In this document: positions 5,786 through 23,216 of the stretch, one piece after another
Layout: each line of letters opens with the position of its first letter
Position numbering within the stretch: position 1 is the first letter of the stretch
NCBI RefSeq assembly: GCF_008974245.1
Contig: NZ_BBZI01000012.1
Coordinates: forward strand, 62,001 to 126,000
Source of the DNA: Streptomyces abyssomicinicus
Lineage (GTDB): Bacteria > Actinomycetota > Actinomycetes > Streptomycetales > Streptomycetaceae
Length of the DNA: 64,000 nt
Reading direction: 5' to 3'
The notes under the pieces: model-generated
What the model saw: only the letters and a program-made list of their open reading frames with translations
Told to the model about the DNA's origin: nothing
Database searches by the model: none
Program-made: the position numbers and the translations under genes

Positions 5786-6147
5786 GGCTCACCTCTTCTC
5801 TCCAGGACCGGGTGACCGGGTGACCGGTTCACCCCGGGAACGCTTTTCGGAACGTTCCACGGGGGTACGGGGACTGCCGGGGCGTGGCCTCCCCGGTGTT
5901 CTGCCCGCCCGCGGGGCGGGGGATGCGCGACGGGCGTCACCCGCGGTGACCTGCGATCCTGGTGGCGAGGTCCGGCCGGCCGCTGTGCCGGGTGTCCAAC
6001 TCGCCCTGAAACCTCATGCATCGGGTGAGGAGTTGTCAACCGTCTTGCGGAAAAGGTGAATTCTGTGATCGAGATGCGCCATCCCCCACCAAGGGCGATA
6101 GGGTTGCCCTGCCCGGGCCGGGTGGACTCGTACGGGTGGGGAGTGTC
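5786..6147. other. Divergent intergenic region with short GGTGACC repeats
   Basis: It lies between the leftward kinase and rightward small-protein gene. Near the kinase start (about 5808-5835) there are direct GGTGACC(C/G) repeats next to an inverted GGTTCACC, a possible protein-binding site close to the kinase ribosome site. No gene is convincing in the rest. Confidence 0.45.
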
Positions 6148-6414
6148 ATGGAACAGATAACGATGCGTAACAGGGCGCGAGTCCCTGCGATCACCTGCGG
6201 AAGCAGCGCGAGCAGTTCGCGCCTCGACCGCCATCTGTCGGTGCTTTCGGGCCCCGCCATACCTCAGCGCGAGACGGTGGAGGCCACCTCGCTGATGCGC
6301 GAGCTGACGGCGCGTGACGTGCCGCGGGAGCGCGGCAAGGGGCACCGGGTCCAGCGGGTGTCGCTCTTCGCGCCGCTGCGCCGGCTGACCCGCTCGCTCT
6401 TCGGCGGGCGCTGA
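6148..6414 (+). CDS. Small basic conserved-looking protein, 88 aa
   Basis: The 88-residue product has no membrane helix and many Arg/Ser residues. The N-terminal part (ITCGSSASSSRLDRHLSVL) contains a single Cys; the C-terminus is strongly basic (RVSLFAPLRRLTRSLFGGR) and may be an amphipathic helix. An ATG with GGGGAG 6-7 nt upstream supports this start over longer frames. I believe similar small proteins occur in other Streptomyces at this position, but no function is known. It stands alone between divergent and same-strand promoters. Small size makes the call less secure than its neighbours. Confidence 0.7.
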   Translation: MEQITMRNRARVPAITCGSSASSSRLDRHLSVLSGPAIPQRETVEATSLMRELTARDVPRERGKGHRVQRVSLFAPLRRLTRSLFGGR

Positions 6415-6785
6415 GCCGTCCGCCCCCACCGCCGGTTCTCCGCTGCGCACACGACACTCCCGTCGTCCCCTCGACCCGCAGCGGAGGCCGGCGCCGTCGT
6501 TCCCATGGTGCCGCCCGGGCGCTGTCGCCTCCGCCGGTCCGAAAGGACCGCACGGACCGCATGGACCGCCGCGCGGCGGTCTGTGCGGCCGCCGCCGATC
6601 GTGGTGTGAACCTTGTCTCTCCTCCCAGAGCGGCCCCGCTCGCTCTGGCGCGCCCAAGCGAGCGCTCGCTAACTTGAGCGGCGGACGACGCCCCCAAGCG
6701 CTCGGCATCCCCCCCGGCCCCCGGCTTCGCCCGGGCCGGGGGGCCCGTGAGCCGGGGCCCCAGCCCCGCCCTGGAGGACGCACTG
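6415..6785. other. Leader region of the aldehyde dehydrogenase gene
   Basis: This is non-coding on the + strand. It contains the 14-bp palindrome at 6657-6670 and, at about 6690-6745, a C/G-rich hairpin-forming segment (GGCCCCCGGCTTCGCC...) related to the dispersed palindromic sequence at about 9622-9710. The RBS GGAGG for the next gene is near 6771. Other open frames here look spurious. Confidence 0.5.
6657..6670. promoter_or_regulatory. Perfect 14-bp palindrome, likely TetR-type operator
   Basis: AGCGAGCGCTCGCT reads the same on both strands and sits about 115 bp upstream of the aldehyde dehydrogenase start. Its form (even-spaced, GCGC centre, AGCGAGC arms) is typical of TetR-family operators. 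No TetR gene is adjacent; the nearest is at 10.8-11.5 kb. Confidence 0.55.
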
Positions 6786-8177
6786 ATGAAGGCACACGAC
6801 GGCATGTACATCGACGGGGCCTGGAGGGCGGCCGCCGGGCCCGACACGATCGCCGTCCTGAACCCCGCCGACGAGCAGGTCATCGCCCAGGTGCCGGCCG
6901 GTTCGGCCGAGGACGTGGACGCGGCGGTCCGGGCCGCCCGTGCCGCGCTGCCGGCCTGGGCGGCCACGCCGCCCTCCGAGCGCGCCGCCCGGCTGGCCGC
7001 CCTGCGCGACGTGCTGACCGCCCGCAAGGACGAGATCGCCGAGACCGTCACCGCGGAGCTGGGGGCACCGCTCGGGTTCTCGCAGAAGGTGCACGCCGCC
7101 TCGCCCATCGCGGTCTGCGGCTCCTACGCGGACCTGGCCGCCTCCTTCCCCTTCGAGGAGAAGGTCGGCAACTCCACGGTGTACCAGGAGCCGATCGGCG
7201 TGGTCGCCGCGATCACCCCGTGGAACTACCCGCTGCACCAGATCGTCGCCAAGGTGGCCCCCGCGCTGGCGGCGGGCTGCACGGTCGTCCTCAAGCCGGC
7301 CGAGGACACCCCGCTGACCGCTCAGCTCTTCGCCGAGGCGGTCGACGAGGCGGGGGTGCCGGCCGGTGTCTTCAACCTGGTCACCGGGCTGGGCCCGGTC
7401 ACCGGGCAGGCGCTGGCCGAGCACGACGGCGTCGACATGGTGTCGTTCACCGGCTCCACCGCCGTCGGCCGCTCCATCGCCGCCACCGCCGGGGCCGGGC
7501 TGAAGAAGGTCTCCCTCGAGCTGGGCGGCAAGTCCGCCAACGTGATCCTGCCCAGCGCCGACCTCGGCAAGGCGGTCGCGGTGGGTGTGGCCAACGTGAT
7601 GGCCAACTCGGGTCAGACCTGCAGCGCCTGGACCCGGATGCTGGTCGACGCCGACCGGTACGAGGAGGCCGTGGAGCTCGCCGCGCAGGCCGCCGCCAAG
7701 TACGGGGACCGGATCGGGCCGCTGGTCAACGCCAAGCAGCAGGCGCGGGTGCGCGGTTACATCGAGAAGGGCGTGGCCGAGGGCGCCCGCCTGGTGGCCG
7801 GCGGCCCCGAGGCCCCCGCCGGGAAGAAGGGCTTCCACGTCAGCCCCACCGTCTTCGCGGACGTCACCCCTGGGATGACCATCGCCCAGGAGGAGATCTT
7901 CGGGCCGGTGCTGACCGTCCTGAAGTACCAGGACGAGGACGACGCCGTGCGCATCGCCAACGGCACCGTGTACGGACTGGCGGGCGCGGTCTGGGCGGGC
8001 GACGAGGCGGAGGCCGTCGCCTTCGCGCGCCGCCTGGAGACCGGGCAGGTCGACATCAACGGCGGCCGGTTCAACCCGCTGGCCCCCTTCGGCGGCTACA
8101 AGCACTCCGGGGTGGGCCGGGAACTCGGCTCGCACGGGCTGGCCGAGTTCCTCCAGACCAAGTCCCTCCAGTTCTGA
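6786..8177 (+). CDS. NAD(P)-dependent aldehyde dehydrogenase
   Basis: This 463-residue enzyme oxidises an aldehyde to a carboxylic acid. The catalytic Cys is in NSGQTCSAW (Cys279 from this start) and the general-base Glu is in LELGGKSAN (Glu245); TPWNYP and GSTAVG belong to the cofactor-binding fold, and EEIFGPVL and PFGGYKHSG are family signatures. I start at the ATG preceded by GGAGG 9 nt upstream; a GTG 39 nt earlier is in frame but has no such site. It is followed by a Zn alcohol dehydrogenase on the same strand, so the pair could convert an alcohol to an acid in two steps. The substrate is unknown. Confidence 0.93.
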
Positions 8178-8232
8178 GCCCCGCTTCTGAGCCCTTCCGG
8201 TTCTGATCCCTACCGGTTCTGAGCCGTTCCAG
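8172..8232 (+). repeat. Four tandem 13-16-bp repeats
   Basis: Units TTCTGAGCC(C/G)(T/C).. recur at 8172, 8185, 8201 and 8217 with a 16-bp period after the first. The first unit includes the last sense codon and stop of the aldehyde dehydrogenase (TTC TGA). It looks like slippage expansion of the gene end; no hairpin is seen. Confidence 0.8.
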
Positions 8233-8267
8233 TCCCAAGTCCCCCCATTTCCAGGAGCGTTCATCCC

Positions 8268-9350
8268 ATGGTTCTCGCCGCCGTGGCGCCCGCGATCGGC
8301 GCGCCGCTGGAAGTCACCGAGATAGAACTTCCCCCGACCGGCCCCGGCCAGGTCCGGATCCGGCTCGTCGCCGCCGGGGTGTGCCACTCCGACCTCTCCA
8401 TCGCCAACGGCACCATGCGGGTGCCGCTGCCGGCCGTCCTCGGGCACGAGGGCGCCGGTGTCGTGACCGAGGTGGGGGAGGGCGTCGGCCATGTCGCGGT
8501 GGGCGACCAGGTGGTGCTCAACTGGTCCCCGTCCTGCGGCAGCTGCCCGTCCTGCGACCTGGGCGAGGTCTGGCTGTGCGCCCGCTCGCTGGACGGGGCC
8601 ACCGCCCCCTACGCCCGCCGGGCGTCGGACGGGCTGGATCTGTACCCCGGGCTGAACGTGGCCGCCTTCGCCGAGGAGGCGGTGGTCGCCGCCAACACCG
8701 TGCTGCCGCTGCCCGAGGGTGTTCCGCTGGCCGACGCGGCGCTGCTGGGGTGCGCGGTGCTCACCGGCTACGGCGCCGTGCACCACGCGGCGCGCGTGCG
8801 GGAGGGCGAGACGGTCGCCGTCCACGGCGTCGGCGGGGTGGGGCTGGCCACGGTCCAGGCGGCGCGGATCGCCGGGGCGTCGAAGATCATCGCGGTGGAC
8901 GTCTCCCCGGCCAAGGAGGAACTGGCGCGGGCGGCGGGCGCGACGGACTACGTCGTCGCCTCCGAGCAGACGGCCCGGGAGATCCGCGGGCTCACCGGCA
9001 AGCAGGGCGTGGACGTCGCGGTGGAGTGCGCGGGGCGCGCCGTCACCATCCGCGCGGCCTGGGAGTCCACCCGGCGCGGCGGCCGCACGACGGTGGTGGG
9101 CATCGGGGGCAAGGACCAGCAGGTCACCTTCAACGCGCTGGAGATCTTCCACTGGGGGCGCACGCTGGCCGGCTGCGTCTACGGCAACTCCGACCCGGCG
9201 CGGGACCTGCCGGTGCTGGCGGAGCACGTCCGGGCGGGACGGCTGGACCTCGGCATGCTGGTCACCGACCGCATCGGCCTCGCCGACATCCCGTCCGCGT
9301 TCGACAACATGACCGCCGGAAAGGGTGGTCGCGCCCTGGTCGTCTTCTGA
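8268..9350 (+). CDS. Zn-dependent alcohol dehydrogenase (MDR family)
   Basis: This 360-residue medium-chain dehydrogenase/reductase has catalytic zinc ligands Cys39 (AGVCHSD) and His60-Glu61 (LGHEGAG). Structural zinc cysteines are at 90, 93, 96 and 104 (C-x2-C-x2-C-x7-C). The Rossmann motif is GVGGVG near 180-190. It interconverts an alcohol and aldehyde using NAD(P). An AGGAG ribosome site precedes the ATG. It lies 90 bp after the aldehyde dehydrogenase with no hairpin between, so the two probably form an operon. Substrate not predictable. Confidence 0.93.
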   Translation: MVLAAVAPAIGAPLEVTEIELPPTGPGQVRIRLVAAGVCHSDLSIANGTMRVPLPAVLGHEGAGVVTEVGEGVGHVAVGDQVVLNWSPSCGSCPSCDLGEVWLCARSLDGATAPYARRASDGLDLYPGLNVAAFAEEAVVAANTVLPLPEGVPLADAALLGCAVLTGYGAVHHAARVREGETVAVHGVGGVGLATVQAARIAGASKIIAVDVSPAKEELARAAGATDYVVASEQTAREIRGLTGKQGVDVAVECAGRAVTIRAAWESTRRGGRTTVVGIGGKDQQVTFNALEIFHWGRTLAGCVYGNSDPARDLPVLAEHVRAGRLDLGMLVTDRIGLADIPSAFDNMTAGKGGRALVVF

Positions 9351-9843
9351 CCGGGAGCCGCGCTCCGGGGCCGCCCCCGTACAGGGGCCGCTCCGTTCGC
9401 GGCGCCCCCCTCCCGCGGAGCCGCCCCTCCCGCGGAGCCGCCCCTTCTGGGGCCCGCCTCCTTCCAGGGCCCGCCTCCTTCCAGGGCCCCGCCTCCTTCC
9501 GGGGCCGGCGCCTCTGTTCCGGGCGCCCGTCTCCGGCCGCACGGGGTTCGTCCCGCGGTGACGTCGGCCGCCGCGGGGCGGGCCGGACCGCTCGAGGCGG
9601 AGGGCGCCGCCCTGCGCCCGCCTCCCCCAGACTTCGTCCGGGGGGACCCCCACCCCCAAGCTCTCGGCTTCGCTTGAGCAGGGGGCACCCCCATCGCCCC
9701 CTGGGCGGCCCAGCCGCCCGCAGAGGGGACCGGGCCAGGCCCCGCGAGGACGTGTCCGCTCCGCGAACCGGGGCCGGGGCCAGGGCCGGACCGGGCCCGG
9801 CAAGGAGGTGTCCGCTGCGCGGGCCGTGGCCGGGCCAGGCGGG
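9351..9843. repeat. Repeat-rich intergenic region with a dispersed palindromic element
   Basis: No gene is visible in this stretch between convergent genes. At about 9408-9442 a 17-18-bp unit (CTCCCGCGGAGCCGCC) is duplicated, and at 9450-9501 a 17-bp unit (GGGCCCGCCTCCTTCCA) is present three times, the last slightly changed. At about 9622-9710 there are two hairpin-forming units, CCCCCAGACTTCGTCCGGGGG and a longer one from CCCCCAAGC to GCAGGGGG. I recall such units as dispersed in many Streptomyces intergenic regions. They may serve as a bidirectional terminator. Confidence 0.65.
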
Positions 9844-16201: not shown

Positions 16202-17476
16202 TCAGCGGTAGAGCAGGTACTGCCTCCGCGTGGCACGGAAGCCGGCCAGCTCGTCCTTCCAGCCGGCCACCACCTCGTCCAGACCGGCGCCCGCGTCGAT
16301 GCGGGTGCGCACGCCGGTCGAACCGGTCAGCTTGTCGATCCAGTTGTCCGCGCGCCAGGCGAACCCGCTCCACGTCGCCCTTGCGGTGATCAGCAGCCCG
16401 ATGCCGGTGCGCACGGGGTCGAAGGCCGCGCGGTCGTCGACGTGCACCTGGACGCCGCCGACCGTCTGGCCGGAGAACTTGTTGAAGGTCGGCGCGAAGT
16501 ACGCCTCCCTGAACCGCACGCCGGGCAGGCCGAGTTCGTTGGCGGCCGCGGCCCACGAGCCGTCGACGCCGGGCGCGCCGAGCAGTTCGAAGGGGCGGGT
16601 GGTGCCCCGCCCTTCGGAGAGGTTGGTGCCTTCGAAGAGACAGGTGCCGGGGTAGACCAGCGCGGTCTCCGGGGTGGGCATGTTGGGGCTCGGCGGCACC
16701 CAGGGCAGCCCGGAGGCGTCGTAGAACTCGTCGCGCCGCCAGCCGGTCATCCGCACCGTCTCCAGCTCCACGGGGGAGGCAAGGAACTCCCCGTTGAAGA
16801 GGAGGGCCAGTTCCGCCACCGTCATCCCGTGCTGCTGGGAGATCGGCTTGCGGCCGACGAAGGTGGCGAACTGCGGGTGCATGACGGGGCCTTCGGCCGA
16901 GCGGCCGGAAACGGGGTTGGGCCGGTCCAGCACCACGAACCGCTTGTCGGCCAGCTGGGCGGCCTCCATGCAGTCGTACAGCGTCCAGATGTAGGTGTAG
17001 AAGCGGGCGCCCGCGTCCTGGATGTCGAAGACGACGGTGTCCACGCCCGAGGCGGTGAAGACGTCCGCCAGCGGCTGTCCGCTCTTGAGATAGGTGTCGT
17101 AGACCGGCAGTCCGGTGGCCGGGTCCCGGTAGAAGCCCTCGGAGCCGCCCGCCTGCGCGGTGCCGCGGAAGCCGTGCTCCGGCCCGAAGACCGCCACCAG
17201 GTCGACCCGGTCGTCCGCGTGCATCACGTCGACGATGTGCGTCGTGTCGCGGGTGATGCCGGTCGGGTTGGTGACCACGCCGACCTTGTCGCCGTCCAGC
17301 AGCGCGTAGCCGTCCGCGGCGAGGCGCTCGAAGCCGGTCCGCAGCGGTCGCCCGCCCGACGGCGGGGTGGCCGGGACCGGCGGGCCCGGCGCCCCGGCCG
17401 CCTGCGCGGCGCCGGCCGCGGTGGCGGACAGGGCGGCGGTGGCCGCGGTGAGCAGGCCTCGTCTGGACACTCTCAT
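16202..17476 (-). CDS. Tat-exported exo-beta-N-acetylmuramidase NamZ-type (DUF1343)
   Basis: This 424-residue secreted protein has a twin-arginine signal (MRVSRRGLLTAATAALS, Ala-rich tail to about 28). The mature part is a full DUF1343 domain: VGVVTNPTGIT, VFGPEHGFRG, VFDIQDAGARFYTYIWTL, LDRPNPV, PGTCLFEGTNLSEGRGT and FNKFSGQTVGGVQVHV. This family (GH171) includes NamZ, which removes MurNAc from the non-reducing end of peptidoglycan fragments. It probably works in cell-wall recycling or scavenging outside the membrane. The start is fixed by a GGAGG site 9 nt upstream and the RR motif. It is a single gene, terminated by a strong hairpin; no transport or MurNAc-use genes are adjacent. Confidence 0.92.
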   Translation of the reverse strand: MRVSRRGLLTAATAALSATAAGAAQAAGAPGPPVPATPPSGGRPLRTGFERLAADGYALLDGDKVGVVTNPTGITRDTTHIVDVMHADDRVDLVAVFGPEHGFRGTAQAGGSEGFYRDPATGLPVYDTYLKSGQPLADVFTASGVDTVVFDIQDAGARFYTYIWTLYDCMEAAQLADKRFVVLDRPNPVSGRSAEGPVMHPQFATFVGRKPISQQHGMTVAELALLFNGEFLASPVELETVRMTGWRRDEFYDASGLPWVPPSPNMPTPETALVYPGTCLFEGTNLSEGRGTTRPFELLGAPGVDGSWAAAANELGLPGVRFREAYFAPTFNKFSGQTVGGVQVHVDDRAAFDPVRTGIGLLITARATWSGFAWRADNWIDKLTGSTGVRTRIDAGAGLDEVVAGWKDELAGFRATRRQYLLYR

Positions 17477-17653: not shown

Positions 17654-17669
17654 ATACCGACCGGTTAGT
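17654..17669. promoter_or_regulatory. Operator before SDR-ligase-TetR operon
   Basis: ATACCGACCGGTTAGT, centred on CCGG, lies about 57-72 bp upstream of the SDR start. Its first 12 bases are identical to one arm of the site at 23199-23216 (read on the other strand), which precedes the kinase-ACAD operon. Likely site of the TetR protein at 20239. Confidence 0.65.
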
Positions 17670-17725
17670 CTGACGCCGCAGTCCAGCGGCGACAGCGCCG
17701 TGTCACGTCGTGTCGGAGGAGACCG

Positions 17726-18493
17726 ATGGTGGAAGCCGTGCAGGATGCCCGGGTCGTCGTCACCGGGGCGGGAGGCGGCATCGGAGCCGCGATGGCCAGG
17801 CGATTCGCCGCCGAGGGGGCCCGGGTCGTGGTCAACGACCTGGACGCGGGGAAGGCGGAGGCCGTGGCCCGGGAGATCGGCGCCACCGCCGTCCCGGGAG
17901 ACGCCTCGGAGACCCTCGGCGCGGCGCGTCAGGCGCTGGGCGGACGGATCGACGTCTTCTGCGCCAACGCCGGCATCGCGGGCAGCGACGGCAGCCTCAC
18001 CCCGGACGACGACGCCTGGGAACGCGCCTGGGACGTCAACGTGATGGCGCACGTGCGGGCCGCCCGCGCGCTGCTGCCGGAGTGGCTGGAACGCGGCGAC
18101 GGGCGCTTCGTCGCCACCGTCTCCGCGGCCGGACTGCTCACCATGATCGGCGCCGCCCCCTACAGCGCCACCAAGCACGCCGCCTACGCCCACGCGGAAT
18201 GGCTCTCGCTCACCTACCGCCACCGCGGGGTCAAGGTGCACGCGATCTGCCCCCAGGGCGTGCGCACCGACATGCTGTCCGGCTCCGGCAGCGCGGGCGA
18301 CCTGGTCCTCGCCCCCACCGCGATCGAGCCCGAGGACGTGGCGGACGCGCTGTTCAAGGGGATGGAGGAGGACCGCTTCCTGATCCTCCCGCACCCGGAG
18401 GTCGCCGAGTACTACGCGGCCAGGGCGGCCGACCCGGAGCGCTGGCTGACGCACATGAACCGTCTGCACCAGAAGTGGGAGAGCATCCGATGA
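17726..18493 (+). CDS. Short-chain dehydrogenase/reductase (SDR)
   Basis: A 255-residue classical SDR: the TGAGGGIG cofactor motif at residues about 13-20, NAGIAG at about 82, a catalytic YSATK (Tyr-x3-Lys) and an upstream Ser region (VSAAGLL). It oxidises or reduces a hydroxy/keto substrate with NAD(P). A GGAGGAG site precedes the ATG. Its stop overlaps the next gene start (ATGA), so it is coupled to the acyl-CoA ligase. In the lva pathway the equivalent enzyme (LvaD) is a 3-hydroxyacid/acyl-CoA dehydrogenase acting on an intermediate; a similar role here is inference from gene content. Confidence 0.9.
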   Translation: MVEAVQDARVVVTGAGGGIGAAMARRFAAEGARVVVNDLDAGKAEAVAREIGATAVPGDASETLGAARQALGGRIDVFCANAGIAGSDGSLTPDDDAWERAWDVNVMAHVRAARALLPEWLERGDGRFVATVSAAGLLTMIGAAPYSATKHAAYAHAEWLSLTYRHRGVKVHAICPQGVRTDMLSGSGSAGDLVLAPTAIEPEDVADALFKGMEEDRFLILPHPEVAEYYAARAADPERWLTHMNRLHQKWESIR

Positions 18494-20148
18494 CGACCGA
18501 ATCCCGGTACGCCGCCAAGCCGTGGCTCGCTCTGCTGAGTGACGCGCAGAAGGCGCCGCTCACGCCTCCGGCCGGCGCGGTGGACGCCCTGCGGCGCGCC
18601 CTCGCCACCCGCGCGGACGAGACCTTCCTCGCCTACTTCGACGGCCGCCTCACCTACCGGGAGGTGGACGCCCTCACCGACTCGGTGGCCGGCCGCCTCG
18701 CCGCACGCGGCGTCGCCAAGGGCGACCGGGTCGCCGTGCTGCTGCAGAACTCCCCGGCCTTCGCGCTCGCCGTCCTCGGCGCGTGGAAGGCGGGCGCGAT
18801 CGTGCTGCCGGTGAACCCGATGTACAAGACCGGCGAGGTCAGGCACGTCCTCGAGGACGGCGGGGTCAAGGCGCTGGTCTGCTCCGACCGCGCCTGGGAG
18901 GCCTACCTGCGCGACGCCGCCGACGGCACCCCGGTCGAGTTCGCCCTCACCGCCTGCGAGCTGGACTTCCAGGGCCGCGACGACAAGCGCGTCCTGGACT
19001 TCGAACGCCTCCCGGTGGCCGCCGACGCCGAGGACCTCACCGAGGCCGCCCGGGCCGGCCACGCCGCCCCCGAGGGCCGGGAGACCGGCCCCGAGGACAT
19101 CGCCCTGATCAGCTACACCTCGGGCACCAGCGGCACCCCCAAGGGCGCCACCAACACGCACGGCAACCTGATGTACAACGCCGAGCGGCAGGCCACCGGC
19201 CTCGGACTTCCGGCGCACGCCCGCTACTTCGCGCTGGCCCCGCTGTTCCACATCACCGGCATGGTCTGCCAGTTCCTGGCCGCCCTCAACAGCGCCGGCA
19301 GCCTGGTGCTCGCCTACCGGTTCGAGTCCGGCGTGGTCCTCGACGCCTTCCAGGAGCACCGCCCGGCCTACACCGTCGGCCCGTCCACCGCCTTCATGGC
19401 GCTGGCCGCCCACCCCGCCGTCAGCCGGCAGCACTTCCGTTCCTTCACCCAGATATCGTCCGGCGGCGCCCCGCTGCCGCCCGCGCTGGTGGAGAAGTTC
19501 GAAGCCGCCTTCGGCCCGTACATCCAGAACGGCTACGGGCTCACCGAGTGCAGCGCCCCCTGCGCCTCCGTCACCGGCGGCCTGCGCGCCCCCGTCGACC
19601 CCGTCTCCGGCACCCTCGCCGTCGGCCTGCCCGGCGCCGACACGGTGGTGCGCATACTCGACGACCGGGGCGAGGAGGTCCCCTTCGGCGAGCAGGGCGA
19701 GATCGTGGTGAAGGGCCCGCAGGTGGTCCCCGGCTACTGGCGGCGCCCGGAGGCCACCGCCGAGACCTTCCCCGACGGGGAGCTGCGCACCGGCGACATC
19801 GGCTTCATGGACGAACAGGGCTGGCTGTACGTCGTCGACCGCAAGAAGGACATGATCAACGCCTCCGGCTTCAAGGTGTGGCCGCGCGAGGTGGAGGACG
19901 TCCTCTACACCCACCCGGCGGTCCGCGAGGCGGCCGTGGTCGGCGTGCCCGACGGCTACCGGGGCGAGACCGTCAAGGCGTACATCTCGCTGCGTCCGGG
20001 AGCCGACGCCACCGGCGAGGAGCTCGCCGCATACTGCAAGGAACGGCTGGCCGCGTACAAGTATCCGCGGCTGGTGGAGATCCTGCCCGACCTGCCGAAG
20101 ACGGCGACTGGCAAGATCCTGCGCAGGGAACTGCGCGGAACGAAGTAG
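18490..20148 (+). CDS. Long-chain-fatty-acid-type acyl-CoA ligase
   Basis: This 552-residue AMP-forming ligase activates a carboxylic acid with ATP and CoA. The P-loop-like A3 motif is SYTSGTSGTPKG; A5 is NGYGLTEC; A7 is RTGDIGF; A8 is VDRKKDMINASGFKVWP; and the A10 lysine is in PKTATGKILRREL. The length and motifs fit fatty acid/aromatic acid ligases rather than acetyl-CoA synthetase. It is the second gene of the operon, overlapping the SDR by 4 bp; the TetR gene follows 90 bp later. It would supply the CoA thioester for the kinase-ACAD pair encoded convergently. The acid substrate is not readable. Confidence 0.93.
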   Translation: MTTESRYAAKPWLALLSDAQKAPLTPPAGAVDALRRALATRADETFLAYFDGRLTYREVDALTDSVAGRLAARGVAKGDRVAVLLQNSPAFALAVLGAWKAGAIVLPVNPMYKTGEVRHVLEDGGVKALVCSDRAWEAYLRDAADGTPVEFALTACELDFQGRDDKRVLDFERLPVAADAEDLTEAARAGHAAPEGRETGPEDIALISYTSGTSGTPKGATNTHGNLMYNAERQATGLGLPAHARYFALAPLFHITGMVCQFLAALNSAGSLVLAYRFESGVVLDAFQEHRPAYTVGPSTAFMALAAHPAVSRQHFRSFTQISSGGAPLPPALVEKFEAAFGPYIQNGYGLTECSAPCASVTGGLRAPVDPVSGTLAVGLPGADTVVRILDDRGEEVPFGEQGEIVVKGPQVVPGYWRRPEATAETFPDGELRTGDIGFMDEQGWLYVVDRKKDMINASGFKVWPREVEDVLYTHPAVREAAVVGVPDGYRGETVKAYISLRPGADATGEELAAYCKERLAAYKYPRLVEILPDLPKTATGKILRRELRGTK

Positions 20149-20238
20149 TTCCCGGCGGCCGGGCGGCGTCCGGCGGCCGGACGGCTCCCCCATAGGCACG
20201 ACGGCAGAAGAAGAACCGGAAGGACAGGTGGCGGCACG

Positions 20239-20832
20239 ATGGCCAGGACGACGGACGGAGAGGGCACGCCCGTTCCCCAGCGGCTGCTGGCCGCCGCCAC
20301 CCGTCTCTTCGCGGAGCGCGGCTACGACCGCACCTCCGTGCAGGAGATCGTGGAGGCGGCCGGCGTCACCAAGGGCGCGCTGTACCACTACTTCGGTTCC
20401 AAGGAGGACCTCCTCCACGAGGTCTACGCCCGGGTGCTGCGGCTCCAGCAGGAGCGGCTGGACCACTTCGCGCGGATGGACGCCCCGGTGGAGCGGCGGC
20501 TGCGGGACGCGGCGGCGGACGTGGTGGTCACCACCATCGACAACCTCGACGACGCGTCGATCTTCTTCCAGTCGATCCACCACCTCAGCCCGGAGAAGAA
20601 CAAGCAGGTACGGGCCGAACGGCGGCGCTACCACGAGCAGTTCAAGGGGCTGATCGAGGAGGGACAGGAGTCCGGGGTCTTCTCCCGGGCCACGCCGGCC
20701 AGCCTGGTCGTCGACTACCACTTCGGCTCCATCCACCACCTGTCGACGTGGTACCGGCCCAACGGCCCGCTGAGCCCCCGCGAGGTCGCCGACCACCTCG
20801 CCGACCTGCTGCTGCGCGCGCTTCGGCCCTGA
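20239..20832 (+). CDS. TetR-family regulator of the SDR-ligase-ACAD regulon
   Basis: This 197-residue TetR protein has the HTH RTSVQEIVEAAGVTKGALYHYFGSKEDLL at about 33-61, with the frequent GALYHYF recognition helix. The C-terminal domain is of the type that binds acyl-CoA-like ligands in lipid regulators. It is the third gene in the SDR-ligase direction and sits between both halves of the putative regulon. Two CCGACCGGT operators, one before the SDR and one before the kinase-ACAD operon, are its probable sites. There is no matching operator directly before this gene, so it is probably made from the SDR promoter. Confidence 0.9.
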   Translation: MARTTDGEGTPVPQRLLAAATRLFAERGYDRTSVQEIVEAAGVTKGALYHYFGSKEDLLHEVYARVLRLQQERLDHFARMDAPVERRLRDAAADVVVTTIDNLDDASIFFQSIHHLSPEKNKQVRAERRRYHEQFKGLIEEGQESGVFSRATPASLVVDYHFGSIHHLSTWYRPNGPLSPREVADHLADLLLRALRP

Positions 20833-20860
20833 CGCGGGCCGCACGGCGCGGGCGGGAGGC

Positions 20861-20909
20861 ACGGCGCGGGGGCGGGACGGGTTCCGGACCCGTCCCGCCC
20901 CCGCGCCGT
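20861..20909. terminator. Bidirectional 22-bp hairpin between convergent genes
   Basis: Arms 20861-20882 and 20888-20909 are perfectly complementary over 22 bp with a TCCGG loop. The hairpin ends the TetR transcript from the left and ACAD transcript from the right. Confidence 0.88.
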
Positions 20910-20914
20910 TCCGG

Positions 20915-22129
20915 CTAGAGGTACTTCTTCAGCTCACGCCGCGCCAGCGACCGCTGGTGGACCTCGTCCGGCCCGTCCGCCAGCCGCAGGGTCCGCGCCC
21001 CCGCGTACAGCTCCGCCAGCGGGAAGTCCTGCGACACACCGCCCGCCCCGTAGAGCTGGATGGCCTGGTCCAGGATCCCGCACACCGTCCGCGGCGTGGC
21101 GATCTTGATCGCCTGGATCTCGGTGTGGGCCCCCTTGTTGCCCACCGTGTCCATCATCCAGGCCGTCTTCAGCACCAGGAGCCGCAGCTGCTCCACCGCG
21201 ACCCGGGCGTCGGCGATCCAGTTCTGCACCACGCCCTGCTGCGCCAGCGGCTTGCCGAAGGCGTCGCGCGACACCGCGCGGCGGCACATCAGCTCGATGG
21301 CCCGCTCCGCCATGCCGATCAGCCGCATGCAGTGGTGGATCCGGCCCGGGCCCAGCCGCGCCTGGGCGATGGCGAAGCCGCCGCCCTCCTCGCCGACCAG
21401 GTTCGACACCGGCACCCGGACGTCCTCGAAGACGACCTCGGCGTGCCCGCCGTGGTACTCGTCGCCGTACCCGAACACCGTCATGGCACGCTCGACGCGC
21501 AGCCCCGGGGTGTCCCGCGGAACCAGCACCATCGACTGCTGGCGGCGGATGTCCGCGCCGTCCGGGTCGGTCTTGCCCATCACGATGAAGATCTGGCACG
21601 CCGGGTTCATCGCCCCCGAGATGTACCACTTGCGCCCGTTGATCACGTATTCGTCGCCGACCCGCTCGATCCGGGTGGTGATGTTGGTGGCGTCCGAGGA
21701 GGCCACCTCCGGCTCGGTCATCGCGAAGGCGGACCGGATCTCACCGGCCAGCAGCGGCTCCAGCCACTGCTTCTTCTGCTCCTCGGTGGCGAACTGGTTC
21801 AGCAGCTCCATGTTCCCGGTGTCCGGCGCCGCGCAGTTGAGCGCGTCCGGGGCGAGCTGGGGGGAGCGGCCGGTGATCTCGGCGAGCGGCGCGTACTGGA
21901 GGTTGGTGAGCCCGGCGCCGTACTCGGCGTCCGGCAGGAACAGGTTCCACAGCCCCCGGCGGCGCGCCTCGGCCTGCAGGTCGTGCAGGACCGGCACGTG
22001 CTCCCACGGGTCGGCGAGGGCGGCGCGCTGCTCGCGGGCCACGGCCTCGGCCGGGTAGACGAACTCCTCCATGAAGTCCAGGAGGTCGGCGCGCAGTTCC
22101 TCGGTGCGTGCGTCGAACGCGAAGTCCAT
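20915..22129 (-). CDS. ACAD10/11-type acyl-CoA dehydrogenase (LvaC-like)
   Basis: A 404-residue FAD protein distinct from ordinary acyl-CoA dehydrogenases: AFAMTEPEVASSDATN, KWYISGAMNPACQ, RHHCMRLIG-type segment (RIHHCMRLIGMAERA) and a C-terminal QLYGAGGVSQDFPLA followed by RLADGPDEVH. The last two are hallmarks of the ACAD10/11 subgroup. In that group the enzyme works with a kinase that phosphorylates the 4-hydroxyl of a hydroxyacyl-CoA, and the ACAD then removes the phosphate and isomerises the chain. The gene starts 2 nt after the kinase stop codon, so they are tightly coupled. It ends at the strong hairpin shared with the TetR gene. Confidence 0.92.
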   Translation of the reverse strand: MDFAFDARTEELRADLLDFMEEFVYPAEAVAREQRAALADPWEHVPVLHDLQAEARRRGLWNLFLPDAEYGAGLTNLQYAPLAEITGRSPQLAPDALNCAAPDTGNMELLNQFATEEQKKQWLEPLLAGEIRSAFAMTEPEVASSDATNITTRIERVGDEYVINGRKWYISGAMNPACQIFIVMGKTDPDGADIRRQQSMVLVPRDTPGLRVERAMTVFGYGDEYHGGHAEVVFEDVRVPVSNLVGEEGGGFAIAQARLGPGRIHHCMRLIGMAERAIELMCRRAVSRDAFGKPLAQQGVVQNWIADARVAVEQLRLLVLKTAWMMDTVGNKGAHTEIQAIKIATPRTVCGILDQAIQLYGAGGVSQDFPLAELYAGARTLRLADGPDEVHQRSLARRELKKYL

Positions 22130-22131
22130 GA

Positions 22132-23157
22132 TCAGCCTTCCTGAAGAGTGGTGAGGCCGTGCTCGATGAAGAGGGGCACCAGGTCGCCGATGCGGTCGAA
22201 GCCGCCGCCGACGGTCTGGCCGAGCGTGTAGCGGTAGTGGATGCCCTCGAGGATCACCGCGAGCTTGAACCAGGCGAAGGCGGTGTACCAGGAGACGGCC
22301 GAGACGTCACGGCCCGACAGTGCGGCGTACCGCTCGACCAGTTCGGCCGGGTCGGGGTGGCCGGCGGCCTCGGCGGTGGTGGAGACGGGGGAGCCCGGCA
22401 GACCGTGCGGGGTGCTGTACATGACCAGCAGGCCCAGGTCGGTCAGAGGGTCGCCCAGGGTCGACATCTCCCAGTCCAGGACGGCCTTGATCCGGTCGTC
22501 GTCGCCGATGAGCACGTTGTCCAGGCGGTAGTCGCCGTGCACCACGGCCGGCGCCGGGGAGTCCGGCAGCCTCCGGCCCAGCGCCGCGTGCAGCTCGTCG
22601 ATGCCTGACAGCTCGCGGCTGCGGGAGGCGGCCAGCTGCTTGCCCCAGCGCCGCAGCTGGCGTTCCAGGAAGCCCTCCGGGCGGCCGAAGTCGCCCAGCC
22701 CGACCGTCTCCGGGTCCAGCGAGTGCAGTTCGACGAGGGTGTCGACCAGCCCCAGCACCGCCGCACGGGTGCGCTCCGGACCGAGCGGGGCGAGCTGCTC
22801 GGTGGTCCGGTAGGGCGTGCCGGCCACGAACTCCATCACGTAGAACGGCGCGCCCAGCACCTCCTCGTCCTCGCAGAGCAGCACCGGCGCCGGCACCGGC
22901 ACGGCCGTCGGGTGCAGGGCGCTGATCACTCGGTGCTCGCGGCGCATGTCGTGCGCCGTGGCCAGCACGTGGCCCAGCGGCGGGCGGCGGACCACCCAGC
23001 GGCCGACGCCGTCGGTGACGTGGTAGGTGAGGTTCGACCGGCCGCCCTCGATGAGGCGGGCGGACAGCTCGCCCTGGAGCAGACCGGGCCGCTCGCGGTC
23101 GAACAGATCGCGCAGCCGGTCCAGGTCCAGGCCTGGCGGATGGTCGGGGCGGCTCAT
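22132..23157 (-). CDS. APH-fold kinase of ACAD10/11 type (LvaA-like)
   Basis: This 341-residue phosphotransferase has the aminoglycoside-phosphotransferase fold: LIEGGRSNLTYHV and WVVRRPP (ATP-binding N-lobe), catalytic loop VVHGDYRLDNVL with the Asp base, and metal motif VLDWEMSTLGDPLTDLG. The last motif matches the N-terminal domain of mammalian ACAD10/11 and bacterial LvaA, which phosphorylate 4-hydroxyacyl-CoA, rather than antibiotic kinases. Here it is a separate gene immediately before the ACAD, as in lva operons. An operator-like palindrome lies 42-60 bp upstream. No LvaB-like small partner gene is seen next to it. Confidence 0.9.
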   Translation of the reverse strand: MSRPDHPPGLDLDRLRDLFDRERPGLLQGELSARLIEGGRSNLTYHVTDGVGRWVVRRPPLGHVLATAHDMRREHRVISALHPTAVPVPAPVLLCEDEEVLGAPFYVMEFVAGTPYRTTEQLAPLGPERTRAAVLGLVDTLVELHSLDPETVGLGDFGRPEGFLERQLRRWGKQLAASRSRELSGIDELHAALGRRLPDSPAPAVVHGDYRLDNVLIGDDDRIKAVLDWEMSTLGDPLTDLGLLVMYSTPHGLPGSPVSTTAEAAGHPDPAELVERYAALSGRDVSAVSWYTAFAWFKLAVILEGIHYRYTLGQTVGGGFDRIGDLVPLFIEHGLTTLQEG

Positions 23158-23198
23158 TCTCCAGCTCCTTCGGGCGACAACGAAGACACCCGATCATG

Positions 23199-23216
23199 AT
23201 GCCGACCGGTCGGTAT
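23199..23216. promoter_or_regulatory. Operator before kinase-ACAD operon
   Basis: ATGCCGACCGGTCGGTAT contains a perfect 12-bp palindrome CCGACCGGTCGG and outer AT/AT. Read on the minus strand it begins ATACCGACCGGT, the same 12 bases as the site at 17654. This gives sequence support for one TetR regulon covering both operons. Confidence 0.7.

Follow-up and report, generated by a model that had tools for sequence, protein, structure and literature searches.

What reaction would five neighbouring genes of Streptomyces abyssomicinicus serve, when they place a kinase of the APH fold directly beside an acyl-CoA dehydrogenase (ACAD; CoA, coenzyme A)? The genes lie in a stretch of 64,000 nucleotides, here called the window (contig NZ_BBZI01000012.1, positions 62,001 to 126,000; G000:C12 in our numbering of genomes and contigs), in a genome of 7,929,138 bases. 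They form two convergent operons, with a short-chain dehydrogenase/reductase (SDR), an acyl-CoA ligase and a TetR-family regulator on the + strand and the kinase and ACAD on the - strand. An initial annotation had fitted them to the levulinate (lva) pathway of Pseudomonas. All five reading frames were intact across 17726-23157, and Pfam agreed on the family of each. We propose that they probably encode a TetR-controlled, LvaB-free route of the ACAD10/11 type, split over the two operons, which converts 4-hydroxyacyl-CoA to 2-enoyl-CoA. The proposed chemistry is based on key residues, clade membership and what has been published about related enzymes.

The best solved relative of the ACAD was mouse ACAD11 (E 6.7e-137, 55% identity); among solved chains that are not ACAD11-like, the best reached E 6.5e-42. 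An ACAD of S. cathayae is 87% identical to the window ACAD. Mutagenesis and structure of the mouse enzyme identified R626, H634, R637 and the catalytic D753 as essential (PMC12440821, in the part available). In the window ACAD, R258, H266-C267-M268-R269 and D385 align with R626, HCMR 634-637 and D753 of ACAD11, the position of the catalytic Asp being fixed through chain 8v3v, which has Asn at that place. None of the five ordinary ACADs that were aligned has the phosphate-binding R/H/R residues or the Asp that replaces Glu. In the kinase, D209, N214 and R166 align with ACAD11 D220 (catalytic), N225 and R176 (CoA contact). A further CoA-contact Arg of ACAD11, R86 (PMC12440821, same part), could not be placed with certainty, and Arg-Glu 73-74 of the kinase aligns with an ACAD11 pair. 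The two proteins are encoded in separate frames with a 2-nucleotide gap, not fused as in mammals; this gap and the two motifs quoted in the initial annotation were present in the sequence. For the related ACAD10, bacterial kinase and ACAD orthologues have been substituted for its domains in an assay, and a preference for R secondary 4-hydroxyls has been described (PMC11342911, in the part available).

We next placed both proteins in trees, whose rows did not include LvaA and LvaC of KT2440 or human ACAD10. In the kinase tree (67 rows), 33 rows of DUF6285-associated or lva type split from the other 34 with a support of 100/100, and the window kinase, mouse ACAD11, 3dxp and 9o56 were all among the 34. 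Two of the 33 (L146 and L207) had no DUF6285 that could be seen beside the kinase. Midpoint rooting divided the splitting branch into 1.31 and 0.48, and the root is unsettled because two distant outgroups on long branches join the 34. The catalytic loop followed the same division, ending in D-N in 48 of 51 window-like kinases and in G-N in all 33 DUF6285-type and all 79 lva-type kinases; the exceptions were L065 (G-N), L136 (E-N) and one outgroup without the motif, and the solved 9o56 has N-N. The ACAD tree (41 rows) was built by a quick method with Shimodaira-Hasegawa approximate likelihood ratio test (SH-aLRT) supports and no bootstrap. It gathered the phospho-lyase-like ACADs in one clade of 36 rows (support 98), comprising 15 of LvaC type, 20 of ACAD11 type (SH-aLRT 100) and one beside the ACAD11 type; the window ACAD lay within the 20. 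These results support the assignment of kinase and ACAD as an ACAD10/11-type pair of the ACAD11 branch, not the lva branch, with the corresponding activity predicted from sequence. Thus the phylogenetic comparison first suggested for the pair, against LvaA/LvaC and ACAD10/11, put both proteins with ACAD11 and neither with the lva enzymes.

The published identity of LvaC to ACAD11 is 56% (PMC11342911, in the part available), whereas the ACADs of seven lva-type loci (five from Pseudomonas, KT2440 not among them) showed 32-36% identity and 50-52% similarity to mouse ACAD11. HCMR and the Asp motif were each present in all seven. The window kinase was 31% identical over 216 amino acids to the kinase of a Stutzerimonas lva operon.

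The two kinase lineages also differed in the company of DUF6285. The order regulator (opposite strand), kinase, DUF6285, optional histidine phosphatase, ACAD, SDR and ligase, which we take to be the lva order, was seen in a Stutzerimonas plasmid. An lva-type scan returned 80 named loci, of which 79 carry the kinase, and 20 of these 79 showed the order as well. Because this gene order matches, we equate LvaB with DUF6285, a word for which our literature search found no paper. DUF6285 lay within 6.5 kilobases (kb) of the kinase in 73 of the 79 loci and, by a strict script, directly behind it in 65. Among 296 actinobacterial genomes, 25 carried DUF6285 (24 above the curated cut-off), and an APH kinase match flanked it in 26 of 29 loci returned, two of which are repeats. 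DUF6285 failed as an absolute marker: 22 of the 25 genomes also have the ACAD at E <= 1e-110, so that DUF6285 and ACAD11-type systems often coexist and are separated by gene adjacency and kinase clade. Our small DUF6285 profile with a 300-base rule misses known cases, L105 included, and its negative calls are weak. In the whole window genome, DUF6285 gave no match at E <= 0.001, in agreement with the first reading, in which no LvaB gene was visible. The division into two kinase lineages, DUF6285 accompanying one only, offers a possible reason for the presence of LvaB in the lva system and its absence from ACAD11.

These data bear on the alternative that the genes encode a true levulinate pathway, in which the SDR would reduce 4-oxovaleryl-CoA and the remainder would proceed as in Pseudomonas putida. 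Apart from DUF6285, the window does have the enzyme classes of the order kinase-DUF6285-ACAD-SDR-ligase, but its kinase and ACAD belong to the other branch and its genome lacks DUF6285. Moreover, a TetR protein stands in place of a PrpR/sigma-54-type regulator, and the outside genes encode NamZ, GntR and GntP, not DUF485 and a symporter. The SDR and ligase were 27% and 33% identical to the Stutzerimonas lva-operon proteins (identities, no tree), a likeness that does not seem to go beyond that of broad protein families. The SDR was closer to other relatives, namely an SDR between ACAD and kinase in Deinococcus (46%), one of Tsukamurella (55%) and those of the actinobacterial modules L059, L061, L148 and L253 (55-61%); many ACAD loci have no such SDR within their short flanks. 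The names LvaA-, LvaC-, LvaD- and LvaE-like, given at first to kinase, ACAD, SDR and ligase, are not supported in the strict sense. Given the other branch of kinase and ACAD and the generic likeness of SDR and ligase, levulinate has no specific support as the substrate, and we regard the lva pathway as an unlikely reading.

Furthermore, we examined how widely the genes are kept. Of 61 genomes of the genus, counting the window genome (one copy), 57 gave a kinase match at E <= 1e-60. From the 56 others with a match, 20 stretches were fetched; kinase and ACAD occurred together in all 20, TetR in 19 and all five genes in 14. Among the incomplete stretches, L041 and L043 end before the SDR, and L054 holds only kinase and ACAD. 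Three of the four kinase-negative genomes (G035, G037 and G051) were also without the ACAD, a joint loss in 3 of 61; the fourth, G043, keeps the ACAD, both operator sites and a shortened kinase. G041, scored as present, has only a 137-residue kinase piece that adjoins a run of N in the assembly, and no kinase-side site. Across the 296 actinobacterial genomes, the ACAD was detected in 103 and the kinase in 118, with 98 genomes carrying the two together (Fisher p 5e-51, uncorrected for kinship). Ten reading frames were scanned in the stretches from other genomes; those located between TetR and ACAD encode M28 peptidases, a two-component pair, DUF642, lysyl oxidase and one protein without a family, and none looked related to the module.

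Two plasmids carried related genes. L134 (Streptomyces cathayae plasmid, 5916-9778) holds a partial copy of the module, made up of kinase, ACAD, a TetR piece and SDR; IS3 genes flank it on either side, and it retains two operator-like sites. L271 (Streptomyces sp. NBC_00388 plasmid, 18853-21215) has an ACAD11-type pair (kinase 53% and ACAD 72% identical to those of the window) inside a biosynthetic-looking cluster with anthranilate synthase, ketosynthases, a CoA-transferase and an AfsA-like hotdog protein, 13-15 kb from ScbR/ScbA genes.

A second alternative is an ordinary fatty-acid or branched-chain beta-oxidation cluster, with a normal dehydrogenase and an APH-fold protein that phosphorylates something unrelated. 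SDR, ligase and TetR are indeed generic families, but the R/H/R residues and the Asp for Glu set the ACAD apart from the five ordinary ACADs aligned, and kinase and ACAD are 2 nucleotides apart, co-occur and are lost jointly. We find this reading improbable, somewhat more so than the lva pathway.

We then turned to the control of the two operons. Each is preceded by a putative operator, as first proposed. The second site reads ATGCCGACCGGTCGGTAT on the + strand and ATACCGACCGGTCGGCAT on the - strand, and the claim that the two share 12 of 12 letters is correct when this site is read on the - strand, towards its own operon, and incorrect as read on the + strand. The likeness of the two sites exceeds chance. 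Three exact copies of the 12-mer ATACCGACCGGT occur in the genome, two of which are the operators, and the degenerate 18-mer matched without mismatch at the operators only. Within the genus, the kinase-side site was present in all 20 fetched stretches and the SDR-side site in all 13 that extend that far, 12 of them with the form ATACCGAC[CT]GGTTAGTCT and one with CAG at the centre. Over 21 aligned sequences, window included, the kinase-side site was conserved at 95% per column versus 67% in the 25 bases upstream and 50% in the 40 bases downstream. Outside the genus, L058 has a site before the kinase (2 mismatches) and two upstream of TetR (1 and 3 mismatches), and L065 has one before each of kinase and TetR (3 mismatches each), these loci representing two other families; L057 has a site before the kinase (4 mismatches).

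A wide regulon is unsupported, because the 18-mer at <=3 mismatches gave 164 forward and 198 reverse matches, versus 140 and 154 for a reversed control. The third 12-mer copy (G000:C10:44944; L033 1939-1956), between divergent alpha/beta hydrolase and molybdopterin oxidoreductase genes, was set aside because its second half fails to continue the palindrome; it may be a half-site target. A site with one mismatch (C5:1190848) was rejected, lying inside a reading frame. Between VOC-family and MFS transporter genes, at C5:1470483 (L079 1501-1518), lies an almost perfect palindrome of this type, 18 bases long and with one mismatch, which may serve another TetR.

The best solved relative of the TetR protein was 3vpr (E 5.4e-26), which we take to be PfmR of Thermus thermophilus. 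The protein was also 35% identical over 188 aligned positions to the TetR of an operon on T. thermophilus pTT27, whose other genes encode SDR, AMP-binding protein, ACAD, phosphotransferase, DUF6285 and histidine phosphatase. That TetR gene adjoins the TTHB023/PfmR sites described in PMC7022988 (in the part available), which gives the consensus operator as TACCGACCGNTNGGTN and measured binding at 0.3-1 nM for the sites TACCGACCGGTTGG and TACCGACCGGTCGG. When each operator of the window is read in the direction of the operon behind it, 12 of the 13 fixed positions agree with the consensus. These results suggest that a PfmR-like repressor acts on both operons.

A third alternative keeps the same chemistry and has it clear or recycle a 4-hydroxy compound made by Streptomyces itself, such as an opened gamma-butyrolactone signal, and not food; the single copy and near-universal presence in the genus (57 of 61) suit an internal substrate, and the position of the L271 pair near ScbR/ScbA also speaks for this reading. 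Against it, the scan of the neighbouring genes revealed none for a signal, the TetR is PfmR-like with an ScbR-family score of 71.7 bits, under half the cut-off of 150, and butyrolactone signals open to a primary alcohol, unlike the R secondary 4-hydroxyls that ACAD10 prefers. We consider it the least probable of the three.

In the ACAD10/11-type route that we favor, the ligase, or another ligase of the cell, would form the CoA thioester, and the SDR would probably interconvert the 4-oxo and 4-hydroxy groups. The kinase would then phosphorylate the 4-hydroxyl of the acyl-CoA, and the ACAD with flavin adenine dinucleotide (FAD) would eliminate the phosphate to give a 2-enoyl-CoA that could enter ordinary beta-oxidation. 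The PfmR-like TetR would repress both operons, its own gene included, through the two matching operators, and may release DNA once a pathway acyl-CoA or the free acid builds up. Natural substrates could be 4-hydroxy fatty acids or opened gamma-lactones. A gene set present in nearly all sampled Streptomyces would in this way gain a concrete reaction, from 4-hydroxy acid to 2-enoyl-CoA.

Several observations weigh against this route or parts of it. At the chosen cut-offs, the partner was missing in 20 of the 118 actinobacterial genomes with the kinase and in 5 of the 103 with the ACAD, and among the best 30 ACAD places the kinase lay within flanks of 1.5 kb in 18 (9 of 9 in the genus, 9 of 21 outside). 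In four actinobacterial loci (L062, L063, L070 and L074), the kinase is of ACAD11 type and the ACAD of LvaC type; no DUF6285 was detected beside these kinases by a test with known misses, and from such mixed pairings it is the type of kinase, not that of ACAD, to which DUF6285 seems tied. In 3 of the 20 genus modules (L040, L048 and L051) the ligase was missing while SDR and TetR are kept, and it is therefore not obligatory. G035 and G051 (L238 and L239) keep TetR without the four enzymes or the sites in a 10 kb stretch around it, so TetR may have another job. Lastly, no operator-like site was found near the related kinases of L056, L059, L061, L135, L147 and L148, whose best matches had at least 4 mismatches elsewhere in the stretch or did not exist.

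In L238 and L239, a second TetR gene, 32% identical, lies ~3 kb away.

The features of the module are collected in Table 1. The start of the ligase overlaps the stop of the SDR as ATGA. Between the convergent operons, the segment 20845-20915 folds at -62.6 kcal/mol (z -5.15), and none of 200 shuffles was equally stable. To the left of operator 1, on the opposite strand, is a gene for a NamZ exo-beta-N-acetylmuramidase (16202-17476, -), and genes for GntR and then GntP follow past operator 2; these neighbours appear unrelated to the module.

Table 1. Coordinates of the module and its control elements in the window
Feature	Position	Strand	Basis or location
Operator 1 (putative), ATACCGACCGGTTAGTCT	17654..17671	+	54 bases 5' of SDR start
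Classical SDR oxidoreductase, 255 aa; proposed 4-oxo/4-hydroxyacyl dehydrogenase step	17726..18493	+	Pfam; relatives at or near kinase/ACAD elsewhere
Acyl-CoA ligase, 552 aa; proposed CoA activation of hydroxy acid	18490..20148	+	Pfam
TetR-family repressor, PfmR-like, 197 aa; final gene of operon 1	20239..20832	+	Pfam; 3vpr match
GC-rich hairpin, probable two-way terminator	20861..20909		Folding versus shuffles
ACAD11-type acyl-CoA dehydrogenase/phospho-lyase, 404 aa	20915..22129	-	Pfam, alignments, tree
APH-fold 4-hydroxyacyl-CoA kinase (predicted), 341 aa	22132..23157	-	Pfam, alignments, tree
Operator 2 (putative), ATACCGACCGGTCGGCAT towards kinase	23199..23216	-	41 bases 5' of kinase start

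Finally, we compared the module with known systems. It shares enzyme classes and the two-step logic of phosphorylation and elimination with the lva operon of P. putida, but that operon has the other kinase and ACAD branch, LvaB (DUF6285), an unrelated regulator and distant SDR and ligase. Operons with ACAD, SDR, phosphotransferase and histidine phosphatase in Deinococcus and Pseudoalteromonas, and a similar one in Azoarcus, resemble the module in that ACAD and kinase are of ACAD11 type and an SDR gene separates or adjoins the two, whereas these operons add the histidine phosphatase and further genes. No PfmR-like TetR was found in the stretches of L132, L133 and L137 (tblastn, E <= 1e-20). A histidine phosphatase gene accompanies kinase/ACAD modules of both types in several phyla (L132, L133, L137, L141 and L142); it may correspond to the HAD domain that ACAD10 has, and it is not among the five window genes.

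The PfmR (TTHB023) regulon of Thermus thermophilus HB8 has the closest solved TetR and the same operator core. It differs in its kinase and ACAD, which belong to the lva type and are accompanied by DUF6285 and histidine phosphatase, and in having one long gene row instead of two short operons. With this shared repressor type, the ligand could be sought among pathway intermediates. A broader and still doubtful idea begins with two kinase lineages for this chemistry: one with the loop D-x-R-x-G-N, which would require DUF6285/LvaB, and one, to which ACAD11 and the window kinase belong, with D-[YF]-[RK]-x-D-N in most cases, which would act alone. PfmR-type repressors would have been joined to modules of both, in Thermus and in Streptomyces. 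In that case, PfmR-type proteins would serve specifically to sense 4-hydroxy- or 4-phospho-acyl-CoA, and a pathway intermediate would be the ligand for PfmR as well as for the TetR of the window.

The closest resemblance is to mammalian ACAD10/ACAD11: both window proteins group with ACAD11, and the key residues that can be placed are kept. Unlike the mammalian proteins, the window has two separate genes in one operon and no HAD domain, and SDR, ligase and TetR are added. Working pairs of bacterial ACAD10/11 orthologues have already been published (PMC11342911, in the part available), and the window pair offers a two-gene model of ACAD11 whose halves could be purified separately.

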